Shown one piece after another: positions 5,141 through 61,438 of a stretch of DNA of 64,000 nt (its first letter is position 1; each line of letters begins with the position of its first letter). Where the stretch lies: assembly GCF_026151205.1 (NCBI RefSeq), contig NC_087072.1:16135669-16199668 (forward strand), written 5' to 3'. Below the pieces are notes generated by a model, which had not been told where the DNA came from, did no database searches, and saw only the letters and a list, made by a program, of their open reading frames with translations. The position numbers were made by a program, and so were the translations under genes. This DNA is from Bolinopsis microptera. Taxonomy: Eukaryota > Ctenophora > Tentaculata > Lobata > Bolinopsidae.

Positions 5141-6479
5141 ATCCCTTTGGAACATTTTCATACTCCCCTGTTTGGTTCACATTAAAAATTTGTTTGGTTT
5201 TTCTTCTAAAAGTCCCTAAAACCCTCTAACCATTTAAAATTAATCAGAGATGCCCCCACGTATCATTACCCTATAAATCCAACCATCCACCCTCCTTCAG
5301 GTTTTAAATTACGCAAACGACATGGAATAAGGCCCCCCCTTTTGAGAAAAAAATTCCCCGACAAGAGTACTCAAAATCCCCGTCCGGAAGTAACTCCGAT
5401 TGATAAAAGGCTGTTATCAAGGAAATGCCCATTTTTTCCAAAAAAGCAAATCCAAGACGTTAACTACAGAATTGCAGACAGTAAGTAGTCGGCCATGGTA
5501 CACGCACTAATGGGACACAGCTTACCTGTCCAATGATTTGCTTTGATGGGATTCCCCTCCCACTTTTATTTGTGCAAATAGCATCAATCCAATTAATTTT
5601 CTAATTCCATGTTATTTAACTCTTTTGATACAGATTATGCATGGTTTTATTCGATCTTGCAGCTAGCATCCAACATTGAAATTATTCACAGGATTTCCTT
5701 GCATGGAATACATTTAACCTTCTTTTTAGCCCCATAAAAATTACCAATTAAAAAAAAGAGTATCCGAAATTTTAAAGAATGGTTTTGGGCCAATTTTTTG
5801 CTAAATACCACGTGGGGGGTAAAAACATTTAAAACGCTTTTTAAGTTTTTTTTTCTGGTGGTTTTTTTTTACCCCGTTTACCTTGATTTTTAAAAAAAAA
5901 AACTTTAAACTGTTTAAAAAAAATATTGGTATTGATTTTTAAAAGACAACAAATGTAAAACCGCAAAAGCCAAAATAAAAAAGAGGTACCCCCAAAAAAC
6001 CAAAAAAACCCCTTTAAAAATTTAAATTCCCCGCATTTCTTAAAACCCCTTTCCAAGTTTGCGTAACTTTGTTTTTTAAAACAATAAACGCCCCCCCTTT
6101 ATTAGTAACCGTTTTTTTTTTTTTTTAAAAAATAAAACCCGGGGGCTGGATTAGTTTTTTAACATTTTTAATTTTGAATTTTTCCCAAATAAAAATTAAA
6201 TTTTTAATTCTCAAATATCGGGTTTTTTATTCCGTAAAAAACTCGAGAATTTTTTGTGTCCCCAAAGTCCCCCCCCTTGGGCCCCCGCCCCCCTTTTTTT
6301 TGCAAATGCAAAAATTTTGTTCCCCGCACCGAACAACAAAATTAAAAAAAGCCCTTTTTTAAACCCCCCATGAAATCAAATTGTTTAATGTTTTCCCCCA
6401 AATTTTATTGTTCCATTGTTTCCATTTCGTAGAAATCCCGGGGGGAAAGGAAATAGTTTTCCCGAAAGACCGGTAAAGA
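5141..6479. other. Low-accuracy sequence, probable 3' ODAD4 introns and exons
   Basis: Error-rich DNA beyond the inverted match. A possible exon end with a consensus GTAAGT donor lies at about 5420-5486; its frame reads roughly QIQDVNYRIAD and could be a late TPR helix of ODAD4. From about 5840 the sequence becomes dominated by homopolymers. No other reliable gene can be read. Confidence 0.35.
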
Positions 6480-7760
6480 AAAATGACCCTCCGAAGGGGG
6501 GAAAACCTCTTCCCCCCCCCCAAAAGCACCAACTCCCCCCCCAAAGGTTTTTTTCCCACACCCCCCCTTTCCCCCCAAACCCCCCCCAAAGGGGCAAAAA
6601 ACCCCCCTGCGCTTTCCCCCCCCAAAGAAATGGCCCCTTTTTTTAAAAAAACCCCCCCTCCCCCCCCAAACCCCCCCAAAAAAAACCAACCCCCCCAGCC
6701 CACACCCCAAAAAAAAAACCCGACCCCCCCCCCCCAAAACCCCAAAAAAAACCAAAAAGCCCCCCGCCCAAAACCCAAAAAAAACACTAAAGCCCCCCCG
6801 GAAAAAAAGCTACAAAAACCGGGGGCCAAAAAAAAGCCCAAACCCCAGCCCCCCCAAGGAAACCAACGCCAACCCCCCCCAAGGAAAAACCCACGCCCCG
6901 CCCCCCAAGGGGAAAAACCTTTCCCCACCCCCAAAAAACAGAAGAGGTAAAACCAGCAACACCGGGGGGCTTTTCCCCCTCCCCCCCAAGAGTGCTAGCC
7001 TGGTGGGGGGCCCAAAAAACCAGCCCCAAAAACCCTTTTCCCCCCCACCCCCACAAAAAAAGCGCCAAAAAAGCCCAGCTGATGCCTAAACCGGCAAAAA
7101 CCCCCAAAGCTCTAAACCACGACGCCCCCCCCGGCCCTGCAAAAAACCCCCGGAAAAGCCCCCTGGGAAAAAAACAAAAACCCGGCCCAAAACCCCCCCC
7201 GCGCCCGCCAAAAACCCGGCAGCCTGCCCCGGGCCAAAAACGGCCAACCCCCCCCGGGGCCCGCCCCCAAAAACCCCCCAAAAACCCCCAAGCCCGGGGT
7301 GCTAAACCGGCAACGCCCCCCAGCTGTCCCAAATCCAGCCCAAGAGTGCCCAAACCCCCCGGGCGGCCCCAAAAAACCCCGAACAAAACCAAAACTGCCC
7401 TTTCCACCCCAGCAAAAAAAGCGCAAAAGCCCCCCCCCGAGCCCCCAAAAACCGGCCCCAACGCCCAAAAACGGCTGCTTAAAAACCCACGACCCAACCC
7501 CGTCGAAAGCTAAACCCCCCAAAAAGCCCCCCCCGGCTGCTAAAAAAGGCAAAACGCCCAAACCAAAACCCCCCCTAAATCCCGGACCGCCTTTCGATGC
7601 TAAAAAAAACCCGGCCCCAAAACCCCCCGCGGCTGCCCCAAAAAAAAGCGACCGGGCCTGGCCGGGAAAATAAACCGGCCAACGCCCCCCTTTTTGCAAA
7701 AAACCCGGCCAACGCCCCCCCGGCTGTTTAAACCGGGGAACCCCCGGGAAAAGTTCCCCC
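6480..7760 (+). repeat. C/A-rich tract reading as Lys/Pro/Ala-rich protein on the plus strand
   Basis: About 1.3 kb made almost wholly of C and A runs. Plus-strand frames at 6483-6950, 6992-7513 and 7299-7673 are open and almost entirely K, P and A, with motifs such as AAKKGKTPKPKP. GCTG-containing words recur (about 7320, 7472, 7535, 7632, 7724), hinting at a degenerate tandem repeat. Two explanations remain: a real Lys/Ala/Pro-rich tail (a histone H1-like or low-complexity C-terminus lying downstream of ODAD4 on the same strand) with inflated homopolymers, or pure basecalling degeneration. The ORFs on the opposite strand (Gly/Phe-rich) are its shadow. Confidence 0.45.
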
Positions 7761-10020
7761 CCCTGCTCCCCCCCCACCAAAACAAATTTCCGCTACAAAA
7801 GCCCAAAACAATGAATGGGAGGTAAAAGCTTTTTATTTTAAATTGCTTGGGGCCCAAATTCCCCCCCAAAAATCAAAAAGCAAATTTTCCCGGGGAAACC
7901 CCGGTTTTTTTTTTTAGGTATTTTTTGTTTTGAAATCTTTTAAAAAACAAATTATTATGAAATTTAAAACCCCCAAATTGGTTTCCACAAATTTTGCGTT
8001 TTTAACCAACAATAAAACCCCAGCCCTTGAAATCCGTTTTTACCTTTCGGAATTAGCTAAAACCCTGCCCTCCGTTGATCAAAGTTTTTCTGCCAATCCC
8101 TGTGTTCGTTTTGGTTTTTGGATAAATTGTTTACCCAGCTTTTTTTTATTCCTTACCAAAACCCGGCCCCCAAGCACATAAAAAAAACATTACTACAAAA
8201 TTTTCCCCCCCTTTTCTGGGGGGGGCGTTGGGTTTAAGGAAGTAGCGCCCTAGAGACGGGGCGGATAATTGAAAGAAAACCCCGTTTTTGCCCCCCCTTC
8301 AGCCCCCCCACTTTTTAAAAAAGGCCCCATAAAAACCGCACTTTTTGAAAACCCTTACAGGATTAATTCCAGAGAATCTACCGGGGTTTTTAAAAAAAGT
8401 CCCCCCCGGGCCCCCCCGACCCAAAAAACAATTTTGAAAAAACCCCTGTCCCCTTCCCCTGAAAATCTTCAAAAATAAATTTTTATCCCCTTTTTTCCCT
8501 TTAAATTTTTATCGGCGTAAAAACTTTCCCGGAACCTTTTTACATTGGGGCCCCCTTAATACTCCCCCCCCCCCCCCCCCGTACATTAGTCCCCCAACAA
8601 AAAGGCCCCCCATGGGTCCCACACTCCACATAAAAATTTTTTTAATAATCCTGAAAAACTTGTAGTTGTAAAAATGGTGGGGCCATGAAACCCCCATTTT
8701 TTGACTTAACCGAAAAAATTTTAAGCCCCTTTTTCTAAAATTTTTTCCTGGAAGCCGTTTGGGAGGCATAATTAAATGTTTAAAAAACCCTTAATTTTTT
8801 TTTTTTTTCGATAAAAATTCGGAAATTTTTAAAACCGTATTCGGGAACGCCCCCCGTTTTGGCCCCCCCAAAAAAAATTGAATCCTTTTAAAAAAGTCCC
8901 CCCCCGCCCCCCCTAAGTTTTTTTTTTTGTTTAAAAATTGGGGCAAAAAAAAAATTTTCCCCCCAAATTTTTCTCCATTTGATGGTTTCCCATTTACCGA
9001 ATAAAACTTTTTGAATCCAGTTTTTTTTGGGCGCCCCATTTTCCCCCTTTTCTTCTTGGAAAAAATTTTTTATGAAAAACCCAAAGAAAAAAAAATTCAA
9101 CGTAAGTGACTTTGAAAACGAGGCAGTTTTAAAAGAAATAAAATATTTTTAAAAAAACAAAATACCAAAGCCCATTTTTCTAATTTTTTGGCCCCTTAGC
9201 CCCCCAAATTTTTATACATAAAAAGCGGAAAAATTTTTCCACAAAAAAAAACCTCCCTCGGGTATAAAAATTGTTTTAGTTAGGCAGGAACCTCCCCCCC
9301 TTTTTTAAATTAGGAGAAGGGGTAAACAGAAAAAAAAATTTTTCAAAAAATATTTAAAAAGTTACGGGGGGAACGGGGGCCGAAAAGTTTTTTTTTAAAG
9401 TTAAAAATACGTTTTTTTGGAATTGACCAATGGGCCCCCCAAAAATTTAAATTCTGGGGATTCAACCCAAGCGCCCGCCGGGGGCACTGGGTATAAAAGC
9501 AGTAAATAAAAAATTACCCCTCCTTTAAATTTGGGCCCAATTTTTCCAACGGTTTTTACTTTTTGGTATCCAACAAAAAAATTAAACCCACCCCCCCTTT
9601 TCCGTTTTTTGGGGAAGCCCAATAAACGTTTACAATAATTTGCCTTTTAAACTTTGTCCTCCAGCCCCGCCCCCCTTTTTTTTTTTGGTTAAAAAAAATT
9701 TTTTTTAGGTTTTTTCCCCAAAAAAAAAAAACCCCCCAGTTTACGGGGTGCCGTTTTGCTCCCTTTTTTTTTTATTTTCCCTCTAGTTTTTTTTTAATTT
9801 TTTTTTTTAAAATATTTTTAATGAGTCTGAATTTCCCCGAATGCCCCCAAATTTTTTCGACTGAAAAAAAATTTTCTGTCCCCCTTTTTAAATTGAAAAA
9901 CCGAAAAAGAAAATTTAAAAACAAAAAAAAAACGACCTTTTTGGTCCCGTTTTTTCTTGTTCGAAAAAAATTTTACCGTGGCCCCAAGATAAAAAATTTT
10001 TTCCCCGGGGTTTTACCTTA
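7761..10020. other. Low-accuracy sequence with no readable gene
   Basis: Homopolymer-rich, clearly unpolished sequence. Short ORFs here have implausible composition (runs of K, F, P, G) and none resembles a known family. Quality changes abruptly to normal at about 10020. Confidence 0.6.
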
Positions 10021-24701: not shown

Positions 24702-25375
24702 TAAAGTCTAAACAAAAGTTCTCAAAACGTACACAACGAGAGAGTGTCGACCTACATGTCAATGAAACAGACTGTTTCACTGTTTGAGACAACACGTGTG
24801 TTTGCGCGCAATTCTGGAATAATCCGAGAGATGAACTGTAGCGAGTGTAACTTTAGTGTGCAGATGAGTGTGTACTTCGATGTATACTATTTCTGCACGT
24901 ACAGGATCCTTTGTAAGGGGTCATTCACATATTTAGTTATCACTCACTTTGCTAACCAATACAGCAATACTGGGGTAGGTTCACTGATAGTGTTTCTCAG
25001 AGATATAGATGGCTGTAAATTATGCTAATAAATATATAAAAATAAATATGGTCAAATGTTAAACAATGAGATGATTTAAGAGAAGCAAATATTAGTGGAC
25101 TGAAATTATAATCTGATAAAGTGCAGCTGTGAACTCAAATGTATAAAACAAACTCACAATTCGGATCGAACAGTTTAAAATGAAACACAATAAGACAGAG
25201 TAATTGGTAAAATGTTAAACAATAAGCTGTTTTAAGACAAGAAAATATTAGTCGACTGAAATTATGATCTGATAAAGTGCAATGTGAACTCAAATGTATA
25301 AAACAACAGATCGAACAGTATACAATAGTACATTTAACAAATGTACTATTGCAAATGACAAAAGTGTAATAAGGT
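24702..25375. other. AT-rich region, no gene recognised
   Basis: It includes an imperfect internal duplication (about 25040-25140 and 25205-25300, sharing TGTTAAACAATGAGNTG-type and CTGATAAAGTGCA words). No coding signal. Confidence 0.5.
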
Positions 25376-26430
25376 AACTGGTAACAAGTCTGCTGGTTAT
25401 TCAAAATTTAACATTAAAATATGTCCCGGCCCTTTGAATCATCCGCCGAATGATCAACTGAATGATTGCAACAGACAAAGAAACAAGCAAAATTTGTTAA
25501 ATGGAGTGCATGATCAAAGAAGGTATATTAGCTCCCTACAAAAATCTAATCCAATGAGAAAATAAATCTAAAGTCCAATTGCAAATGACAAAAGTGTAGT
25601 AAGGTAACTGCAGGTAACAAGTCTGCTGGTTATTGAGAATTTAACATTAAAATATGTCCCGGCCCTTTGAATCATCCGCCGAATGATCAACTGAATGATT
25701 GAAACAAACAAAGGAACAAGCAAAATTTGTTAAATGGAGTGCATGATCAAAGAAGGTATATTAGCTCCCTACAAAAATCTAATCCAATGAAAAAATAAAT
25801 CCAAAGTCCAATTGCAAATGACAAAAGTGTAGTAAGGTAACTGCAGGTAACAAGTCTGCTGGTTATTGAGAATTTAACATTAAAATATGTCCCGGCCCTT
25901 TGAATCATCCGCCGAATGATCAACCGAATGATTGCAACAGACAAAGAAACAAGCAAAATTTGTTAAATGGAGTGCATGATCAAAGAAGGTATATTAGCTC
26001 CCTACAAAAATCTAATCCAATGAGAAAATAAATCTAAAGTCCAATTGCAAAAGACAAAAGTGTAGCAAGGTAACTGCAGGTAACAAGTCTGCTGGTTATT
26101 GAGAATTTAACATTAAAATATGTCCCGGCCCTTTGAATCATCCGCCGAATGATCAACCGAATGATTGCAACAGACAAAGAAACAAGCAAAATTTGTTAAA
26201 TGGAGTGCATGATCAAAGAAGGTATATTAGCTCCCTACAAAAATCTAATCCAATGAGAAAATAAATCCAAAGTCCAATTGCAAAAGACAAAAGTGCAGTA
26301 AGGTAACTGCAGGTAACAAGTCTGCTGGTTATTGAGAATTTAACATTAAAATATGTCCCGGCCCTTTGAATCATCCGCCGAATGATCAAATGAATGATTG
26401 CAACAAACAAAGGAACAAGCAAAATTTGTT
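25376..26430. repeat. 233-bp satellite array, left block
   Basis: A partial unit followed by four full units starting at 25499, 25732, 25965 and 26198 (spacing 233 bp). Units share ATGGAGTGCATGATCAAAG, TATGTCCCGGCCCTTTGA and CATCCGCCGAATGATCAAC and differ by a few bases. 233 is not a multiple of three, so the 60-80-aa minus-strand ORFs inside units are not a repeated protein domain. Confidence 0.93.
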
Positions 26431-27930
26431 CAGAATAAAACAAATATTCAGAATAAAACAAATAATATATTCAAATCTCTTTATTCAACAATATTAAATC
26501 ATTATAGAACCTAATTTGTGGCTTGATCGTTATGTTAGGGCTATTCTGTTAGCTGATGCTGACAGGCACTGCATGGGGCAGAGACTTAGGACCATTACGC
26601 TGGAGGCTTACAATGACCCTTTTTGAACCCCATGGCAGTGCTAGTTTTATTATGGTACAAATTGTAAATCGAAGTTATGAAAACGATCAAGTCACTCCTG
26701 TTTTACACTATCAACAGCTACTTAAAACAACCTAGATTGTACAACTCACTTTGAAGATTAAACTGTTAAGTGATGAGTGATTGGGCTCATTAAACATTTT
26801 AGTAGCGGAGACATGCGGATCAGCTTCTTGAGGTTCTAATAGTTCATTCAGACAAGAAGTTTTACTTTTTCAAATTTAGTTGTTCAAGCTGCCTGAGTTC
26901 AGAAAGTTTGCCAAAGGGGCCCAGGTATTCTTGTCACCTTTACCCTGAGACGAGAGAATGACTTTTTTTACCTTTGATTTGAATACACCATGAGTGATTT
27001 CAAGGTCGTTCAGTGCCAACATCTGACGGAATGAATTCCAAAGGCAACTAGATTTGTAAACGAAACTGTTTGAGGGCATGGTTGTTATAAGAAGAGTTTC
27101 TTTGCCGGGTCTTTTAGACAAACAGAAAAGTTCAAATAGTGCAATTGGTGTTCGATACTTAAAGACTTTAAAAAGTTCATTGCAGCAGTGATACGCGTAT
27201 AAATTATGCAATGTCATGAGTGATTGACGGGCAAAAATTGGCTTGGTGTGCTCTCTCTCAAAGAATTTGCTAGTAAGTTTCTGTTCACTGATGGGTCTAG
27301 TCCTAGCACATGTCATAAATTTATCAAGGTATGCTTTTTTGTCACCAAACATGATACGAACACACTTTTTCTGGGCTACAAATAGTGGTTGAAGTTTATT
27401 ATTACTTGCACCTCCCCAAACGGTAATGCCATAAGATAGGTGACTTTCAAACAGTGTGTGGTACAGGTCCTTATGGATAGATGATGGAATTTTATCCTTA
27501 ATCATGTATAGCCTCCCAGAACAGGACGAGAGTTTTCTAACTAGTTTGTCTCTATAGGGATTGAAAGTTAGGCCTTCGTCGACAATTACTCCCAGGAATT
27601 TCGTTTCCTGCACCTTTGAGAGAGGTAGGCCATTGAGGTAAAGTCTATTTTCAATTAATAAAGATTGATCATCAAGTTTTCTTTTAGCTGTATTGAATTC
27701 TATATAGCAACTTTTCTTGGCGTTAACATGTAATTTATTAGCCAATGTGTACTCGTGGACTGATCGTAGGACCCTATTAGCATTATTGTAGGCCTCTGCT
27801 CTAGTTTTGGCAACTACAAATATGTTTGTATCATCAGCAAATAAGACATAGCTAGTGTTATCGAGTTGAGAGTTTGTTAAGTCATTTATGTATATTAAAA
27901 ACAGGAGAGGCCCAAGGCAGCTCCCCTGTG
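26431..27930 (-). mobile_element. 5'-truncated non-LTR retrotransposon (LINE) with reverse transcriptase 3' part
   Basis: The minus-strand ORF 27930-26876 (about 350 aa) starts inside the RT palm at SIPQGSCLGPLLFLIYINDL. It has the catalytic FADDT motif (variant of YADD), a KFLGVIVDEGLTF segment and the SYGITVWGGA thumb, and ends at FLNSGSLNN. The upstream endonuclease and RT fingers are absent, so this is a classic 5' truncation. The 3' UTR ends at 26431 with short repeats of CAGAATAAAACAAAT (plus strand), like the simple-repeat tails of some LINEs. It lies precisely between two blocks of the 233-bp satellite. The ORF is intact for its length, suggesting recent insertion. Confidence 0.9.
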
Positions 27931-28460
27931 GAATGGAGTGCATGATCAAAGAAGGTATATTAGCTCCCTACAAAAATCTAATCCAATGAGAAAATAAATC
28001 CAAAGTCCAATTGCAAAAGACAAAAGTGTAGCAAGGTAACTGCATGGGTAACAAGTCTGCTGGTTATTGAGAATTTAACATTAAAATATGTCCCGGCCCT
28101 TTGGAGCATCCGCCGAATGATCAACCGAATGATTGCAACAGACAAAGAAACAAGCAAAATTTGTTAAATGGAGTGCATGATCAAAGAAGGTATATTAGCT
28201 CCCTACAAAAATCTAATCCAATGAGAAAATAAATCTTAAGTCCAATTGCAAATGACAAAAGTGTAGCAAGGTAACTGGTAACAAGTCTGCTGGTTATTGA
28301 GAATTTAACATTAAAATATGTCCCGGCCCTTTGGATCATCCGCCGAATGATCAACTGAATGATTGCAACAAACAAAGGAACAAGCAAAATTTGTTAAATT
28401 GAGTGCATGATCAAAGAAGGTATAATAGCTCTCTACAAAAATCAAATCCAATGAGAAAAT
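27931..28460. repeat. 233-bp satellite array, right block
   Basis: Two full units (27931-28165 and 28166-28395) and a partial third to about 28460. The phase continues exactly from the left block across the LINE: the left block stops at AAAATTTGTT and this one resumes at AATGGAGTGC. Confidence 0.92.
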
Positions 28461-29636
28461 ATTGTTTTCCGATATTACAATCACAATCCACGGACATGAC
28501 TAAAAATGACTGACACGTCCCGCGCGGCATCAGAAATATGGGAGGAAATCTGGCACCACGATTTGTGGTGCCAGTTGTGGCCATGGATAGAGCCCTCTTT
28601 GCCGCCTCCGGCGGTCGCGCGCTACTGCAAGCGAGAGGGCTCTGGTTAGAGCAATATGTTCATTAACATAATAAAGATTTGGCGGAATGACAGGCTGAGC
28701 GCGGCCCAGTAAGCAAATCACATGCTTAATGTCGCACGCGAGGTCTAGCGGTCTGTTTAAATTAAACCACCTCTGACCTCTAGTACCACCATTAGCCAGT
28801 AACTTTTGCTGGGTCGACGAGTCTAACTCGGCGCGCGTCTTGGTAAGTATAAACTTACAATGTACAAGGTATATACAAGATATAAATTTTAATAAGTTAA
28901 CCAACAAAATTGAAGTTTCAATTAAGCGTCAAAAAGTATTTAGCAGTTTTATATTATCAATTATTCAATGTTATATTCTATGATGAATTTTGTTGAAATT
29001 TAAAATGAAAATACGCGCTGTACATGTAGTCGCTACGCCTCGCGTTTCAGCTAAACTGGTTTTAAATTATATTGTTTCCAAAAATCGAGCGCTTGTCAGA
29101 GCACCACAATTGTAGGTCAATCATCATATCAAAATCCAGATGTCGGTTCGGTCTTCAACTTTCAGTAATCAGTAATAATTACAAATTAATTATTAATTCA
29201 AACAGTTCTTTTTGTTTGTGACTTGTCAAATGTCAATTGTGAATTGACAGTGCAAATTAAATCACATTAAACTCAAAAGCTTTGTACAGAGTGCAAACAG
29301 TCAAAGCCAGAAATCAGAATGGTGGGCTCTTCCGTAATCTGATTTTCAGAATCTTTTTTGTGAATCTTCTACTTTCTATTCTATATTCGAGCTAAACAAT
29401 TTCTATAACATCTTTGAAGTTTAAAACTGGTCACTGGAGAGTGGAGAGTGGCGACAGTAATCAGTAGAATGCAGATTGCAGTAGACACTAGACAGTAAAT
29501 ATTTAACAGCAAAGTGCAACTGTCAATTGTCAAAGTGGTCAAACAATTGTTTCTCAGAAGTTTTATTCAGATTTAAGTCTTGAATAATTCGAGTTGGCAG
29601 GGAAATGGACAAATACCCGAGTGATGAAGTATAATC
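28461..29636. other. Repeat-derived region with short hairpins, no recognised gene
   Basis: Contains a perfect hairpin at 28552-28572 (GGCACCAC ... GTGGTGCC) and a GAGCCCTCT / AGAGGGCTC pair around 28592-28643. It also has a GC-rich 32-mer (28813-28844) that recurs inverted at 61461-61492. The minus-strand ORF 28530-28907 crosses these structures and has no recognisable domain. Confidence 0.5.
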
Positions 29637-30870: not shown

Positions 30871-32946
30871 TCAGGGGAGTTCTTTAATAATGTTACGGTC
30901 GTCTAGAATACCGAACTTCCTGAAAACGTTATCATATTTCCTCAGACAACGTTTAATGCCTTTAATCAGTCTATCACGGCTATATCCTCTATCAATTAGA
31001 ATTTTGAATATTTTGTGAAGATGGGAGGTAAAGATATCCACTCTAGTGCAAACATTACCATATCTAAGAACTTGACTTGAAAAAACGTTGTAGCCAACCT
31101 CGGTTGGGATGTTACTGTGAGGAAATGTAAGGGATACAACATGGAAATTAAAATCATCAGTTTTGTTATACACTGATATTTCTAGTCCTTCTGTGGAAAT
31201 ATTAATATTTAAATCAAGGTAGTTAATGATTTTATTATTGGAACCAGCTCGCTCCATCTCCAATGAATTAGGATAAATATCTTTAATCAATTTATGAAAG
31301 TAAAGGTAGTTAATAATAGATAAATCGTCAACATATCGTTTATTATTGGATAATATCTTTGCTAATCCCATTTTCTTTTCCTGAAGTAAACGTTTCATAT
31401 AATTAAATTCCTTTTTGCCAACAGTGAGATCAGCTATAGGGGAACTTGAATTTCCACCCATAGGAATACCCTTGGTTTGTATGAATACAATCCCACCGAA
31501 GACGACATAAGTGTTATAAATAATAAATTTAACAGCCTCTTTTAGGTCATCTTGACTAAAGCAGGCATGAGAATCATAGGTTTTATTGGAAAAGAAACAT
31601 GTATTACTGTCTTTTTTAGAAATACAAATATATCTATTACGGTCTGAAAATATTAAATCAACAACTTCATTAATCATATTCTCTACTTCAATCAAGTCTA
31701 ATCTGGTATAAAGAGTAGTAAAATCATATACTTGTATATTATAAACATCGCTATTTTTGATAGCTTCAAGGAATTCACTTGAGGAATCTATGCTCCAAAA
31801 CATGTTTATACCGCTGTTGTTGTAGATTGCCTCGCAGTATTTCTTGAAGTATTTCCTCAAAAGTTTCAGACAACAGTTAACTTGGACGTTAAGTTGTTTC
31901 GTAACGCAAAAACGGGCACCTGCAATGAACCTCGCCTTGTAAGGGTTCTTATGAAGCTTAGGGTTCCAGAAGATGCGTGCTAGTCGCAAGTTTTTATCTT
32001 CAACTTGTACATAAATAAAATAATAATAAAATTTATAATAAAATTTGGTAGCTTAAACACAAACTCTAAGCCCAGTGGATAAACCACAAAACTTATGCTC
32101 TATTGTGTGAAACAAAGATACTAGATCAAGATAACTATCAAGGAGTGTATGCATAGGACATAAAAAGTTTTGGAACGAAGATGACATGCTTGTGAAGCGA
32201 GCTAACAGTCTAATTGCTAATAAGTTCAAAAAGATCATGACATTAGGTTGCATCCTAAACAGTTTAAGCAAATAACATTAAATCTCTCCTTTAGACTCTC
32301 AGATATTTTATTGACATAATGAGTCTCGTCTTCGCTACAGGGTTTATATGTATCATTACCTATACATTATAGAGTATTAGGATCAAAACCCATTTCATTG
32401 ACAAGAGTTTTTACATAAAACTTTTTACAAATAAATGAAAAATTACCAGAAGCTTTGTCGATACTACAAATAATGTATTTACTTTTCAGCAATTTAAGAC
32501 TTCTTTTAACATCATCTTTTTCCAGTGTGTTTTCTTTTATTTCAAATGTTTCAGGAAAGATTTTCTTGTAATATTCAATACGATTGGAAACTATTGATAA
32601 CACTTTTTCCTTCCAATCGCTGAACTTTACTTCTTTTTGACAGTACTTTCTACTTTTTGATTTTATAAATTTATCGACAGCTTCGGTAACTGACATATAT
32701 ATCTCATCTGGAGATTTAAATGTGGGAATTCTGTATTTACAACCGTAGGAAAGTACTTCCCTAAGTTCAACATTATCAACAATATCTAAATTACCAGTAA
32801 CTACATGTCCATGAGGATGATAATTGAAAGTGGAGGAGTGACAATCGCATGGACTACCTAAAATAGATTTAATATCAGAAATAGAAAGTTTCTTTGAGAA
32901 TGAAGCATAGTTACAAATAGAAAGACTTATAGGATCATTATATTAT
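30871..32946 (-). pseudogene. Penelope-like / related reverse transcriptase relic
   Basis: Minus strand. The N-terminal portion (about 32946-32367, open) has the region CNYASFSKKL, then CDCHSSTFNYHPHGHVVTG, a pattern seen in Penelope-type elements, then LKLLKSKYIICSIDKASGNF. A stop at about 32367 and roughly 250-300 bp of non-matching sequence interrupt it. The core resumes at about 32025-30874: ARIFWNPKLHKNPYKARF, VYDFTTLYT (motif A), KGIPMGGNSSSPIADL (motif B) and NKRYVDDLSI (motif C with the YVDD catalytic pair). It ends NIIKELP and stop, with no GIY-YIG endonuclease following. The RT core is intact but the element is broken, so probably dead. Assignment to the Penelope-like group is by motif pattern. 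Confidence 0.75.
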
Positions 32947-34080: not shown

Positions 34081-37000
34081 ATGTCTCACATAAAGAGGTT
34101 GGAGATTCGGGGTATACGGAGTTACAGTCCTAACAGAGCCGTGTGTATGGAGTTTGCCAGACCTGTCACACTTATAGTTGGTCAGTTCTGAACGAGTGAC
34201 AACTTTTTTTAATTGTCAGATTTTTTAGATAAAGAACAATGTTTTTCTTACTTTAAACCCACATTTAAACCACCTTAAGGGGAGATACACCAAAACCTTT
34301 TTTGCTCCGAACATCGATTTTATTTTATATTATTTTTAAATAGACAAAAAGAATAAGATTGTACACCTTCAAAAATGTTTAAAAATATTCCCTCATCGAG
34401 AAAAAAAATATTTTTCTTTTTCGAAAATTTTTCAAATTTGGAGAAGTCTGTCACTGTAATACCGATAGTTCGGCCATTTAAAAAGTTTTTTGGCTGATTC
34501 TTTTACTGAACATTACTTACACTCCGTACTAGAAGCCATTGAAAGGATTATATAATTGAACAATAAATGACCAAGTTAAAGACCGAACAAGGTGAAAAAA
34601 GAAAAATTGGGATTTTTGCCTACCACCAAAGTTGTACATTTCACCACCCGCCCAGGTCATCAGATATCGCTTCAAAAATTATTGTGAGTGTAGTTGATGA
34701 TCATGGCAAGCTTTTTGGAACCGGATTTCTCTCAATTTTGAGTTTTAAGCTATGCAATGTGGCCTCAAACGACTTAGTAAAATTCATCGTAAAAAAGGGC
34801 AAAAAAGGCAGATTTAAGGCTTAAAATGCCTATAACTCAAAAAGTATCAGTTTTTTTGAAATAATTTTTACAGGATCGTAATCAGCTTGGTAAGACGAAT
34901 CTTTTAGTACGACATTTATAATATTCAAAGCCACAAAATTTGTAAAAAAATGTGTACAATTTGTACAAAATTTATACAAGGGGGGACCCTTGTGTTCGAG
35001 CTAGAAAATTATTTAAGACAATTTGTCTTCTAAAAGCACCTATTTGGTACTAAAAGATTTGTCTTACCAAGCTGATTACGATCCTGTAAAAATTATTTCA
35101 AAAAAACTGATACTTTTTGAGTTATAGGCATTTTAAGCCTTAAATCTGCCTTTTTTGCCCTTTTTTACGATGAATTTTACTAAGTCGTTTGAGGCCACAT
35201 TGCATAGCTTAAAACTCAAAATTGAGAGAAATCCGGTTCCAAAAAGCTTGCCATGATTATCAACTACACTCACAAGAATTTTTGAAGCGATATCTGATGA
35301 CCTGGGCGGGTGGTGAAATGTACAACTTTGGTGGTAGGCAAAAATCCCAATTTTTCTTTTTTCACCTTGTTCGGTCTTTAACTTGGTCATTTATTGTTCA
35401 ATTATATAATCCTTTCAATGGCTTCTAGTACGGAGTGTAAGTAATGTTCAGTAAAAAAATCAGCCAAAAAACTTTTTAAATGGCCGAACTATCGGTATTA
35501 CAGTGACAGACTTCTCCAAATTTTAAAAATTTTCGAAAAAGAAAAATATTTTTTTTCTCGACGAGGGAATATTTTCAAAAATTTTTGAAGGTGTACAATC
35601 TTATTCTTTTTGTCTATTTAAAAATAATATAAAACAAAATCGATGTTTGGAGCAAAAACGGTTTTGGTGTATCTCCCCTTAATGCTAAGTATTTTCAGTC
35701 TATATTCCTCAATTTCAGGTCACAACGGTAGTGGAAAAACATCAGTTATAGAGTGTCTAAAGTTTGCTTGCACCGGTGATACGCCCCCAGGAAACAAGGG
35801 TAACTTTGTGCACAGCCCTAAAATAGCTGAGGAATACGAAGTCAGGTCAGTCTTAAAGGACCAGTTAACTGAAAAATTTGTAGTCTCCAATTTGGCTAAG
35901 ATTTAAATCAGCTGTGACAAACTGGTAAAGAATCGTATCGCCGAAAGAACCAACTCTCTAGTGTACGTGTAACGCGTGTTATTGCAATAATAAGCTGTGG
36001 CCTCGTGACGTCATAAATTCCCTCAGTGCGCGCTTGCATAGCGTAATTTACATTACAAATGATTATCATCGTCAATAAAACACGTGTAACTCACTCAAAT
36101 TTTAGAATTATGACTATTACCCTAGTTCTCCAAAATCCTTATAGTTTTGGCTATCATTCTAACTAAAGGAATAGCTGATTGGATGTACAGTGCTCACGTC
36201 ATGATTTTAAACAGTGATATAGGTTCTTGAACAGTGGCGGGTGAATGTACGGTTAGAAAGTTTCTGCTATTTCAACTTATGCCATATGTGATAATTTTGG
36301 ATTGTTTTCATTGCTTAATTACACAAGCAGCTAGGGAGACTGTACCGATTATTTTTCCCCAGTCCATGAAACTCTAACGAATTTAGAAAGGATCTAGATA
36401 AGTAGGAGTTTGTTCAATTCCGAGAGCAATTATATTTATAGCATAGCGAAATTTATAACTTTAATCCACATGTGTCAGCCAGTACAGGAGACAAGAAGTC
36501 TGGCTACTTTACGGCCGTTCCTCAGCTCTGGGACCATTGGTAGAAGTAGCTTCTATCAGAACAGTGCCGTGGGAACAGAATTCCCGCCAAAATACCCGGT
36601 CAGGGGTCTACCAAATAGTTTAATACTGATTCGAGTGTACGGTGTGCGGTGTGTTTTGAATTAGACTTACGGCTTACCTAGTTGTTATCCTAATTGCATT
36701 ATCATCGGTACATAACATAAATAAACTACTGGTAAGTTTAAATACCAAGTGCAAACGTGTTCAGTCAATCGACCCACTGAACAACTAAAGAATTTCCAAG
36801 ACCCTATTATTCTCTGGCCATATATTACGGCACGATCGATTGTTAGATGGCTAAACGACCAACGTTAATCTATACAATTCTAAAACTATGAGCTAGCACT
36901 TTAATCAAAAAATACACTTTTTATATATTACTCCTGATTTTTACATTTCACGTAAAATATTGTCGCCACAGGTTGATCATGGACACTAACAGCTTGATTT

Positions 37001-51331: not shown

Positions 51332-52609
51332 CTACTTGGCGACTCTGTTTTTGACAATGTTGCTCATATTATCTCCTTGATTATTTCGGATTCGGGGTGA
51401 GTCAATATTACTCCAGCTCTCACTTTTCAACTTGGTCAAATCGATAATTCCTCTGCTGTTCCATCCCCGCCTCTTAGAGCTGGGTATCTTGTCGACACTA
51501 ACCGAGGTTTCTTGACCCAGCTGATTGGAGATACCGCTCCTGTCGATAGTAGCCGTGCTATTACGACCATGCTCTTTTAAGGCCATAAATGTGCTGACAA
51601 TGCTGGATGTAGATTGAAGCTTTAAGATGCGGTTTTTCTTCTCCTCCTTGCTCCACCTCTTGAAGGCAGTCATTCTCATGTAGTATAGGACGGGGTTGAT
51701 GGCAGAATTGAGCACGATGAACACCACACAGGACACTGGCCATGCGTACCAGAACATCATCCTGTTCTTTAAGTACGGTCCAGGGTATGGTAGATGAGAA
51801 TGGATTCTAACATTCTCCATGGTGAGCATGATGCAGTACGGCATGTTGCAGAAGATGAAACAACCTGTGAAGATAGCTATTGTGATGGATGCCTCCTTCT
51901 TGTGGTTCTGAGCTCCTCTTATTGTCTCCTGACAAATAAGTCGAATGACTGAGACGATGAAGCTTATGAAGGTGACGATTGAAGGGACTGCAACAAGGAG
52001 AACCAACATGAAGGTGACTCGTCCCAGTGATTCTGGCTCAGGCTGGAGGAGACAGAATGGTCCCACGGAAAGGTAGATAAACCTTCCTTTGTAGATTGCT
52101 CCTGTTATCTCGACTACTAGCAGCATTATTGCATAGATCCCTAGACTCAACAGTGCCCGGAATTTGTTGACTTTGTAGAATGGTAGTACGATGGCAACAG
52201 TCCTTGATACACTCAGCAGCATGACCGTGAAAATGGTGAATTTCTGTAAGAAAAAGAAAGCAATATTCCAAAAACCACAAAAAATTAGATTATTGAAAAT
52301 TCCTGGGACACGACCCCTAAAAAATGCTATTGTGGTCGGGTAATGCCAGAAACTAATCACAAAATCACAAATACAGCTTATACTATACAATATAGCAGAC
52401 AAGTCCTTCCTTCCAGTGGAGTGGAAGTATCTTAAAGCTAGAATGTTTCCAGGGGTACCAATAAGTCCAAACAGGAGGAGGAGAACTCCGAGCAGTTTGT
52501 CTGCCGCGGGTCCACCTGATAAGTCCATCTCGTCCATTTTAACGTGGGGGTTGTACTTCTGCGTTCCGTTCATTCTAGTCCTGTTCAACTTTCTTTTAGT
52601 GAGACACAT
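51332..52609 (-). CDS. Class A (rhodopsin-like) G-protein-coupled receptor, intronless
   Basis: 425 aa in one exon. Seven hydrophobic segments: TM1 about residues 38-60 with GTPGNILAL (the GN motif), TM2 about 70-92, TM3 about 108-135, TM4 about 155-175, TM5 about 197-225, TM6 about 245-268 (FTGCFIFCNMPY), TM7 about 295-317 with NSAINPVLYYM (NPxxY form). The Cys in TM3 (FCGFWN) and the one in loop 2 (GPFCLL) could form the usual disulfide. The DRY position reads SRT (SVSRTVAIV), so Arg is kept but Asp and Tyr are replaced. The cytoplasmic tail of about 100 residues is Ser/Lys-rich. The N-terminus has one likely glycosylation site (NGT). A second in-frame Met (residue 13, or MDEMD at 25) could also be the start. 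The ligand cannot be inferred; it resembles the many lineage-expanded invertebrate class A receptors. Confidence 0.88.
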   Translation of the reverse strand: MCLTKRKLNRTRMNGTQKYNPHVKMDEMDLSGGPAADKLLGVLLLLFGLIGTPGNILALRYFHSTGRKDLSAILYSISCICDFVISFWHYPTTIAFFRGRVPGIFNNLIFCGFWNIAFFFLQKFTIFTVMLLSVSRTVAIVLPFYKVNKFRALLSLGIYAIMLLVVEITGAIYKGRFIYLSVGPFCLLQPEPESLGRVTFMLVLLVAVPSIVTFISFIVSVIRLICQETIRGAQNHKKEASITIAIFTGCFIFCNMPYCIMLTMENVRIHSHLPYPGPYLKNRMMFWYAWPVSCVVFIVLNSAINPVLYYMRMTAFKRWSKEEKKNRILKLQSTSSIVSTFMALKEHGRNSTATIDRSGISNQLGQETSVSVDKIPSSKRRGWNSRGIIDLTKLKSESWSNIDSPRIRNNQGDNMSNIVKNRVAK

Positions 52610-54095: not shown

Positions 54096-55108
54096 GGGGG
54101 GACAATGGGTATTTTTTCGTGAAACTTGATTTCGAGATAGCAGTTGACCAACAAACTAAGACCAGTGACCGAACTTTTGAGGGGGTCCCAGACCCGAACC
54201 GCCCAACGGTACCCGCGGGGCAGCCACGCTCATATTTGGTCCAAATTAGGCCCACTTTAGCAAAATACCCTGAACATGCCCAAAACCCAGGTTGAAGGTG
54301 CACTACTTGTAGCTAGTGGTCTCCTGAACTCGTATATGAAATTTCGTCAAGATTGAACAAAAAATGACTGAGTTATGAGCCAAAAACCATATGCCCATAT
54401 TTGGGCATACGCATCAAATTTGGTAGATTTCGTCCCATAAATTGGTCAAATATCCATATTTTTGAATGAGACTTACTTTATATGAAAGGTAAGCCTAAAC
54501 TACATATTCTCTGTAAGTTATAGCTTTATATCTATTTAAATGTGGATACTAAGACGAAAATACCCCAAAAAATGAACAAAATTGCCCGTATCTTCGTTCG
54601 CGCTATTCGCGGAATTGATTTCATTAATTTGGAAATAACTCAATCAGTTTTCAAAATTTTTGCATGAAATTTTCGGAATAGACTCTAAATCGCATTTCCA
54701 CCTTATTCTAGGAAGCCGATTTTTGATTTAGGCCTCCAAAAAAATTTGGCGGCCAAATTCTGAATTTTGCCAGGCAAATTTTGAAATTTGGCAGCCAAAT
54801 TTTTTTGGAGGCCTAAATCAAAAATCGGCTTCCTAGAATAAGATGGAAATGCGATTTAGAGTCGATTCCGAAAATTTCATGCAAAAATTTTGAAAACTGA
54901 TTGAGTTATTTCCAAATTAATGAGTTTAGGCTTACCTTTCATATAAAGTAAGTCTCATTCAAAAATATGGATATTTGACCAATTTATGGGACGAAATCTA
55001 CCAAATTTGATGCGTATGCCCAAATATGGGCATATGGTTTTTGGCTCATAACTCAGTCATTTTTTGTTCAATCTTGACGAAATTTCATATACGAGTTCAG
55101 GAGACCAC
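54096..55108. mobile_element. Fold-back element, copy 1
   Basis: The left end (GGGGGGACAATGGGTATTTT) matches the left end of the element at 60534. From about 54316 to 55108 the sequence folds back: 54316-54500 pairs with 54925-55108 (GTGGTCTCCTGAACTCGTAT and complement), and 54634-54770 pairs with 54785-54920 around AAATTTGG words. The left arm has about 130 extra bases (54500-54640) not mirrored at right. No transposase. It also contains ATATGCCCATATTTGGGCAT, itself an inverted repeat. Confidence 0.88.
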
Positions 55109-60533: not shown

Positions 60534-61438
60534 GGGGGGGGGGGGGGGGGGGGCAATGTGTATTTTTTTGTGAAACTTGAATTCGAGATAGCAGTTGGCC
60601 AACAAACTAGGACCAGTGACCAAACGGTGCGCGCAGGGCAGCCACGCCCATATTTGGTCCAAATTAGGCCCAATTTAGCCAAATACCCTGAACATGCCCA
60701 AAATCCAGGTTTATGGTGCTCTACTTGTAGCTAGTGGTCTCCTAAACTCGTATATGAAATTTCATCAAGATTGGACAAAAAATGACTGAGTTATGAGCCA
60801 AAAACCATATGCCCATATTTGGGCATATGCACCAAATTTGGCAGATTTCGTCCCATAAATTGGTCAAATATCAATATTTTTGGATGAGACTAACTTTATA
60901 TGAAAGGTAGGCCTAATCTACATATTCTCTGTAAATTATAGCTTTATATCTGTTTAAATGTGGATATACTAATATCTTAATATAAGGCGAAAATACCCCA
61001 AAAATGAACAAAATTGCCCGTATCTTCGTTCGCGATATTCGCGGAACTGATTTCATCAATTTGGAAAATAACTCAATCAGTTTTCAAAATTTTTGCATGA
61101 AATTTTCGGAATCGACTCTAAATCGCATTTCGACCTTATTCTAGCAAGCCGATTTTTAATTTAGGCCTCCAAAATAATTTGGCGGCCTAATTCTGAATTT
61201 TGCAGTGCAAATTTTGGAATTTGGCCGCCAAATTTTTACGAGCACCATAAACCAGGGTTTTGGGCATGTTCAGGGTATTTGGCTAAATTGGGCCTAATTT
61301 TGACCAAATATGGGCGTGGCTGCCCCGCGGGCACCGTTTGGCGGTTAGGGTCCGGGACCCCCTCAAAAGTTTGGGCACTGATCCTTGTTTGTTGGTCAAA
61401 AAATACCCATTGGCTGCCCCCCCCCCCCCCCCCCCCCC
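60534..61438. mobile_element. Fold-back element, copy 2, with poly-G/poly-C ends and TTAA target duplication
   Basis: TTAA at 60530-60533 and 61439-61442. The left end is a G run followed by CAATGTGTATTTTTTTGTG; the right end reads CAAAAAATACCCATTGGCTG and a C run. The interior shares long stretches with 54096-55108 (GCCCATATTTGGTCCAAATT, TCTCCTAAACTCGTATATGA, GCCCGTATCTTCGTTCGCG). No transposase. This copy keeps both ends, so it defines the family limits. Confidence 0.9.

Follow-up and report, generated by a model that had tools for sequence, protein, structure and literature searches.

A palindrome in the first intron of ctenophore RAD50: most likely a routine insertion of a dispersed element with TTAA flanks and arms that tend to change together

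Introduction

Long palindromes are usually regarded as unstable. The first intron of RAD50 in the ctenophore Bolinopsis microptera nonetheless contains one of about 1.4 kb, and this raises two questions: is the palindrome there because of the gene in which it lies, and what keeps its two arms alike? Here we address both by analysing a stretch of 64,000 nucleotides of contig NC_087072.1 (henceforth the window, to which all coordinates given without a contig or locus name refer) together with further copies of the same sequence found across the genome.

Results

Structure of the palindrome and its host gene

The inverted repeat consists of a left arm (34275-34915, plus strand) and a right arm (35042-35682, minus strand) of 641 nt each, which are 98% complementary and are separated by a central spacer of 126 bp (34916-35041, plus strand; its core, 34920-35037, falls into a bin of low divergence discussed below). 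Comparing arm with arm, we counted 13 mismatches over 641 bp (16 over 645 bp) and no gaps. Of the inverted repeats listed for the window, none is longer, the runner-up measuring 186 nt. The initial annotation had described a near-perfect palindrome of 1.4 kb, which is accurate for the two arms and inaccurate for the central 126 bases, as these lie outside the palindrome; it had also stated that there is no net indel between the arms, and indeed the coordinate sums for the ends and for the open reading frames (ORFs) are all 69957, with no gap. Both outer ends read TTAA (34275-34278 and 35679-35682), which we interpret as a target-site duplication from the 40 copies described below. The element proper, a palindromic non-autonomous transposon of 1400 bp (34279-35678), opens with GGGGAGATACACC on each strand.

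The placement of the palindrome in intron 1 of RAD50 is confirmed by the way in which the flanking exons join. The coding part of exon 1 (34081-34180, plus strand) starts with an ATG at 34081 and ends in a split codon, followed at 34181 by the GT donor of intron 1 (34181-35718, plus strand; GTCAGT ... AG). In the spliced translation the frame resumes in phase at 35719, and the part of exon 2 that was read (35719-35838, plus strand) includes the Walker A motif GHNGSGKT. This downstream coding part matches RAD50 chains in PDB (E 2.3e-16) as well as the AAA_23 family. Subtracting the element and one TTAA leaves a predicted intron of 134 bp; the element is probably a passenger that stretched this 134-bp intron to its present 1538 bp, and it is presumably removed from the RAD50 transcript by splicing. 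For RAD50 itself, what emerges is a longer intron and nothing beyond.

Each arm contains an ORF of 85 codons (34567-34824 on the plus strand in the left arm, 35133-35390 on the minus strand in the right arm), and the two are the sole ORFs of at least 85 codons within the element. They are mirror copies of each other, as had been noted at the outset, but they do not represent a conserved gene: there was no Pfam match for the ORF, and its length is kept in 37 of 80 arms from across the family. Among the 12 diverged copies, none of the 24 arms keeps it. We thus rejected a coding role. The RNA of 34181-35600 is predicted to fold into one long stem (-976 kcal/mol), which supports the earlier suggestion that the intron, if transcribed, would form a very long double-stranded RNA.

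A dispersed family of TTAA-flanked palindromes

A whole-genome search for further copies yielded 696 candidates, of which 40 were scored. Each of these 40 places gave matches on both strands, i.e., is palindromic, and they lie at different sites, so the genome holds at least 40 copies; the 39 other than the window copy were fetched with their flanks and aligned. Since the same palindrome occurs at each of these 40 places, we can exclude that it originated by chance. The 17-base terminus of the family, with at most one mismatch, gave 201+204 matches compared with 0+1 for a reversed control. Exact termini of the first type numbered 222 (62+78+82) and those of the second type 159. The 222 exact termini formed 87 plus/minus pairs less than 15 kb apart, 53 of them 1380-1425 bp, with 48 termini left unpaired. 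The smallest forms of the family are two terminus pairs of 46 bp (C10:17823390-17823435 and C5:11926654-11926699).

TTAA was found at both ends in 37 of the 40 copies. The exceptions are L034, where one end is replaced by other sequence, L042, where the first eight bases of one end are gone, and L036, which has TTAT at one end. In L039 the terminus sits 27 or 28 bases outward of where it had initially been marked, and behind it comes a short insertion. In L030 an additional A/T stands between TTAA and GGGG/CCCC on either side, as would be expected if TTAA is the target and not a part of the element. The check that the initial annotation had proposed, namely a genome search for other copies and TTAA sites, thus turned up both. 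With inverted termini, a target duplication of fixed length, many dispersed copies and no transposase gene, the family belongs with miniature inverted-repeat transposable elements (MITEs) and other non-autonomous DNA transposons, while its long inverted arms (641 bp) and short middle (126 bp) place it in the structural class of foldback elements. The palindrome is a long MITE or foldback element, a palindromic transposon that inserts at TTAA, is non-autonomous and is likely to be mobile. The element is numerous, and its insertion in RAD50 is most likely an ordinary one. The published literature that we searched (Repbase lay outside the search) contained no mention of it.

Long palindromes are a familiar artefact in long reads, and a read fold-back or an assembly error had accordingly been raised as a concern for this locus. 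An artefact, however, should have produced identical arms and a sequence confined to one locus. What we found instead were 40 copies, each at its own place and with its own flanks, and, within the window copy, 13 differences between the arms; differences near the loop are moreover common to nearly all of the 26 core copies defined below. Given these dispersed copies, distinct flanks and inherited arm differences, we rejected an artefact, whose probability we regard as negligible.

A different possibility is that the palindrome has been kept in RAD50 for a function, either by serving MRE11-RAD50 as a hairpin substrate, with feedback on the expression of RAD50, or by giving rise to double-stranded RNA. 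Its location in RAD50 intron 1 and the predicted RNA fold as one long stem would both be in keeping with this idea. By contrast, the window palindrome is one among at least 40 copies of the same structure, and among the 26 core copies it has the most one-arm substitutions (11, against 1 mirrored in both arms), a pattern that offers no hint of selection for symmetry at RAD50. The special tie to RAD50 that had caught the attention of the initial annotation also sits poorly with the genomic distribution of exact termini, which were found on contigs C1-C13, C17, C40, C86, C95 and C155. Considering this dispersal, we rejected a RAD50-specific feature; retention for a function in RAD50 seems very improbable, and the tie between the palindrome and RAD50 function looks like coincidence.

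Ends of the element and its likely mobiliser

According to PMC9587614, Kolobok elements follow the rule of 5'-RR...YY-3' ends. The palindromic element reads TTAA-GG...CC-TTAA, and thus combines a TTAA duplication with RR...YY ends. Judged by these ends, its superfamily is most likely Kolobok-type, and we class the element as Kolobok-like, short of a proven member. A Kolobok-type enzyme from the same genome presumably moves it in trans.

A Kolobok-like element with a transposase gene is present in this genome (L068:1019-5313, i.e., C8:1819518-1823812). It encodes a 742-aa protein with THAP plus Mutator-like domains, and also holds an ORF with a P2RX7_C domain; many of its derivatives carry internal deletions. 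Its ends, AGATATCATGAAGTGT and AGGGATCATGAAGTGT, were located by means of many derivatives with identical start and stop positions and by a paralogous locus elsewhere on that contig (C8:1442580-1444320), which is empty of the element and at which the 4-base overlap is TTAA. This element resembles the palindromic family in its TTAA duplication, its purine termini and its presence in the same genome. It differs in that its terminal inverted repeats (TIRs) are short and read AG..ATCATGAAGTGT rather than GGGGAGATACACC, and in that it codes for a THAP transposase. Given the difference in TIRs, we rejected this element (near copy L032) as the direct parent of the palindrome and regard it as a superfamily neighbour.

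Comparison of exact terminus pairs with transposase matches revealed no autonomous partner with the ends of the palindrome family (TTAAGGGGAGATACACC). Specifically, none of 26 piggyBac, 18 Mutator-domain and 64 Kolobok-protein matches was seen by eye to lie inside a long exact terminus pair, where the Kolobok-protein search scored 60 of 106 candidates, 100 of the 159 second-type termini were compared and exact pairs only were considered. Among the long terminus pairs, sequence was read for 4001 bases of one, besides L034, in which one end is displaced. The pair in question, of 7.8 kb on C8, is unsupported as an autonomous parent, as the 4001 bases read hold a LINE-like frame. This frame (L069, C8:7352000-7356000) runs for 1131 residues without closing within the stretch read and lies between two family termini; by eye it looks like a LINE retrotransposon.

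The same target would also suit a piggyBac-type MITE, and the genome has 26 piggyBac-domain matches, one of which (locus L049) is followed, 12 bp past its own end, by a family copy of the second type. That copy looks like a neighbouring insertion, however, and none of the 20 piggyBac loci that we fetched owns the termini of the family: 6 have TTAA-CCC inverted pairs (L067 has further pairs) and 14 have no pair. As the GG...CC ends fit the Kolobok rule, the ends do not support piggyBac as the mobiliser, and we consider a piggyBac-type origin quite unlikely in comparison with a Kolobok-type one.

Subfamilies and mirrored blocks

We compared the arms of 38 of the 40 copies (76 arms), having dropped L034 and L041 (end missing, internal deletion). 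The 38 copies split into a core group A (n = 26), a group B (n = 6; L036-L040 and L042) and a group C (n = 5; L043-L047), with L035 standing apart. Group C differs from group A at 3 of the first 24 positions and then at 41 of the next 98, alike on both arms. Divergence between groups A and B is 18/100 in two mirrored bins and 0-8% elsewhere, and one pair of bins in the A-C comparison is uneven (15/100 vs. 9/100). In the spacer bin, divergence from the group A consensus is 1.7% (A-B) and 3.4% (A-C). The subfamilies thus look like mosaics with mirrored blocks. As a separate observation, the same 10-column deletion at alignment columns 540-549 is present in one arm only, namely the right arm in L031 and L040 and the left arm in L033; L039 has a gain of 10 columns adjoining the site of this deletion.

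Mirrored changes between the arms

The main test of mirrored changes was carried out on the 26 group A copies and 624 usable columns, with right-arm changes shuffled among like bases in 2000 trials. We found 73 mirrored changes, whereas the shuffled sets averaged 1.1 and reached 6 at most. Counted as variants, 149 were found in group A, of which 55 were mirrored in at least one copy and 94 occurred in one arm only (48 and 90, respectively, outside the variable columns 100-122). The number of changes common to both arms was 2.81 on average within a copy compared with 0.13 across copies (650 left/right pairs). Differences between group consensus sequences were likewise divided into mirrored and one-arm ones, giving 40/1 for A-B, 104/9 for A-C and 90/7 for B-C. 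Changes in both arms of the same copy thus exceed chance, as is characteristic of palindromes under arm-to-arm gene conversion, and together with the one-arm tracts described below they point to such conversion acting in tracts. Some of the mirrored changes private to a copy might, in theory, stem from assembly polishing in which reads were placed on the wrong arm.

One could alternatively suppose that every transposition rebuilds a perfect palindrome (e.g., by snap-back synthesis off one arm), so that the arms are identical at birth and later diverge, without any ongoing conversion. In line with this scenario, 13 mirrored variants are common to more than one copy (11 outside columns 100-122), while same-arm variants that are never mirrored are rarely common to copies (3 variants), as expected if the sources were symmetrical when jumping; furthermore, with the columns near the loop set aside, L015, L016 and L022 have just a single substitution confined to one arm. 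Yet one-arm variants can outlast transposition, since the right-only variant at column 130 is inherited by L020, L021 and L032, and the left-only variant at column 633 by L013 and L025. Five arm differences adjacent to the loop are also nearly fixed across the 26 core copies, and two group C copies carry a foreign tract on a single arm. In L043 this tract comprises 24 of 41 arm differences within 65 columns (shuffled maximum 14) and in L047 it comprises 28 of 41 within 130 columns (shuffled maximum 21; 5000 shuffles in each case), where tract lengths were picked after the data had been seen.

Individual columns illustrate how a one-arm variant may become mirrored. At column 362 the variant is right-only in L011 and L032 and mirrored in L020 and L021, while at column 340 it is left-only in L011, mirrored in L032 and right-only in L023, the last of which suggests that repeat mutation may exist. 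The arm tree groups L011, L020, L021 and L032 with moderate support, with L028 included on the left-arm side. Because one-arm variants are inherited (columns 130 and 633), because variants confined to one arm in some copies stand on both arms in related ones (columns 362 and 340), and because L043 and L047 carry diverged stretches in one arm, we favour conversion in tracts over rebuilding at each jump, which we consider unlikely.

Other results weigh on the opposite side. One-arm cells outnumber mirrored ones in group A (122 vs. 73; 126 one-arm cells on a wider column set), the changes that set L035 off from the core comprise 25 mirrored and 21 one-arm ones, and indels are mostly in one arm. 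In the arm tree many left arms cluster with left arms which, together with the near-fixed differences on the loop side, suggests that homogenisation is incomplete there. We found no GC bias among the mirrored changes, with 15 AT>GC vs. 27 GC>AT as compared with 35 vs. 39 among one-arm changes (Fisher p=0.25, with the direction being opposite), and GC-biased conversion is thus unsupported. Mirrored G>A and C>T changes occurred in a ratio of 16:6 (strand bias p=0.052).

Other features of the window

The window also contains a second palindromic repeat family, with copies at 54316-55108 and 60620-61399. Within the first of these, the arms 54316-54501 and 54923-55108 are 100% complementary over 186 nt, and the other copy is about 6% different there; other arm pairs within a copy are 95% alike, and pairs between copies 89-90%. 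Arrays of 230-233-bp repeats at 25348-26430 and 27932-28461 flank an ORF (26876-27949) that by eye resembles a reverse transcriptase. Shortly before RAD50 starts, two ORFs on the minus strand (30871-31989 and 32367-32696) appear by eye to be pieces of a reverse transcriptase; they had no Pfam match, and we take them to be perhaps Penelope-like. A region of low complexity at 6359-7780 is C-rich and A-rich on the plus strand and has short repeats and overlapping ORFs on both strands; the bin 6001-8000 has a GC content of 0.507 and a GC skew of -0.446. Finally, a receptor-like ORF at 51332-52609 has 10 matches, of which the sole one with a species name comes from the ctenophore Mnemiopsis leidyi (55% identity over 73%).

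Discussion

On our preferred account, the palindrome in RAD50 belongs to a dispersed family of palindromic elements that have TTAA flanks and carry no transposase gene; a Kolobok-type enzyme likely moves them, and tract-wise gene conversion between the arms likely keeps these alike. We consider this account, taken as a whole, to be probable. The source of the mirrored changes, we infer, is the use of one arm as a repair template for the other. Pairing of the arms may take place within one DNA molecule (hairpin or cruciform) or involve sister copies, and a paired arm would then template the repair of its partner, so that a mutation becomes mirrored. Besides hairpin or cruciform pairing, gap repair after excision is another candidate route.

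A more speculative extension of this account, which we put forward tentatively and hold to be rather less likely than not to apply, is that the element is a self-correcting transposon. Its arms would serve as a built-in backup, with pairing allowing one to overwrite the other, and the engine would be either MRE11-RAD50, through its processing of hairpins, or mismatch repair. If so, each copy would evolve as one sequence written twice, and a full-length hairpin would persist while the sequence drifts and blocks swap between subfamilies. One copy would then also happen to sit in RAD50, a part of its would-be engine.

Whatever the reputation of long palindromes for instability, this ctenophore genome carries dozens of them at full length. 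Every copy logs its mutations as mirrored, half-mirrored or private to an arm, and the family thus amounts to a natural replicate experiment on the repair of inverted repeats. The likely copying of mutations from arm to arm is the part of the finding that is worth keeping.

Several known systems offer points of comparison. The T2-MITEs of Xenopus, with AGGRR ends, are presumed to be nonautonomous Kolobok elements (PMC6004289). They resemble the family described here in their TTAA target, termini that start with purines, dispersed copies and an assignment to Kolobok by termini, the mobiliser being inferred in both cases. In contrast to the AGGRR ends of T2, the ends here are GGGGAGATACACC, and the element is, apart from its spacer, a 1.4-kb palindrome.

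Arm-to-arm conversion appears, by analogy, to have precedents in Galileo, in C. elegans and in the palindromes of the human Y chromosome. In Galileo of D. mojavensis, TIRs within a copy are 98-100% identical, and repair of a TIR templated by TIR1 of a copy of the same subfamily, with lengthening of the TIRs, has been suggested (PMC3573991). Galileo and other foldback elements (Tetris, PMC4079207) share with the present family long inverted arms, a short middle, many copies and mosaic or chimeric copies. However, Galileo belongs to the P superfamily and has chimeric copies with unlike 7-bp sequences at their two ends, whereas the duplication here is TTAA. For the long inverted repeats of C. elegans, an active process that maintains their structure has been described (PMC1803023), and the human Y palindromes undergo arm-to-arm gene conversion with a GC bias (PMC3723533), a bias that we did not see in the palindromic element. 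In both of these systems, as in the family described here, an inverted-repeat structure appears to be actively kept; but while the C. elegans and Y cases concern particular chromosomal loci, the ctenophore element offers many dispersed copies with replicate histories.
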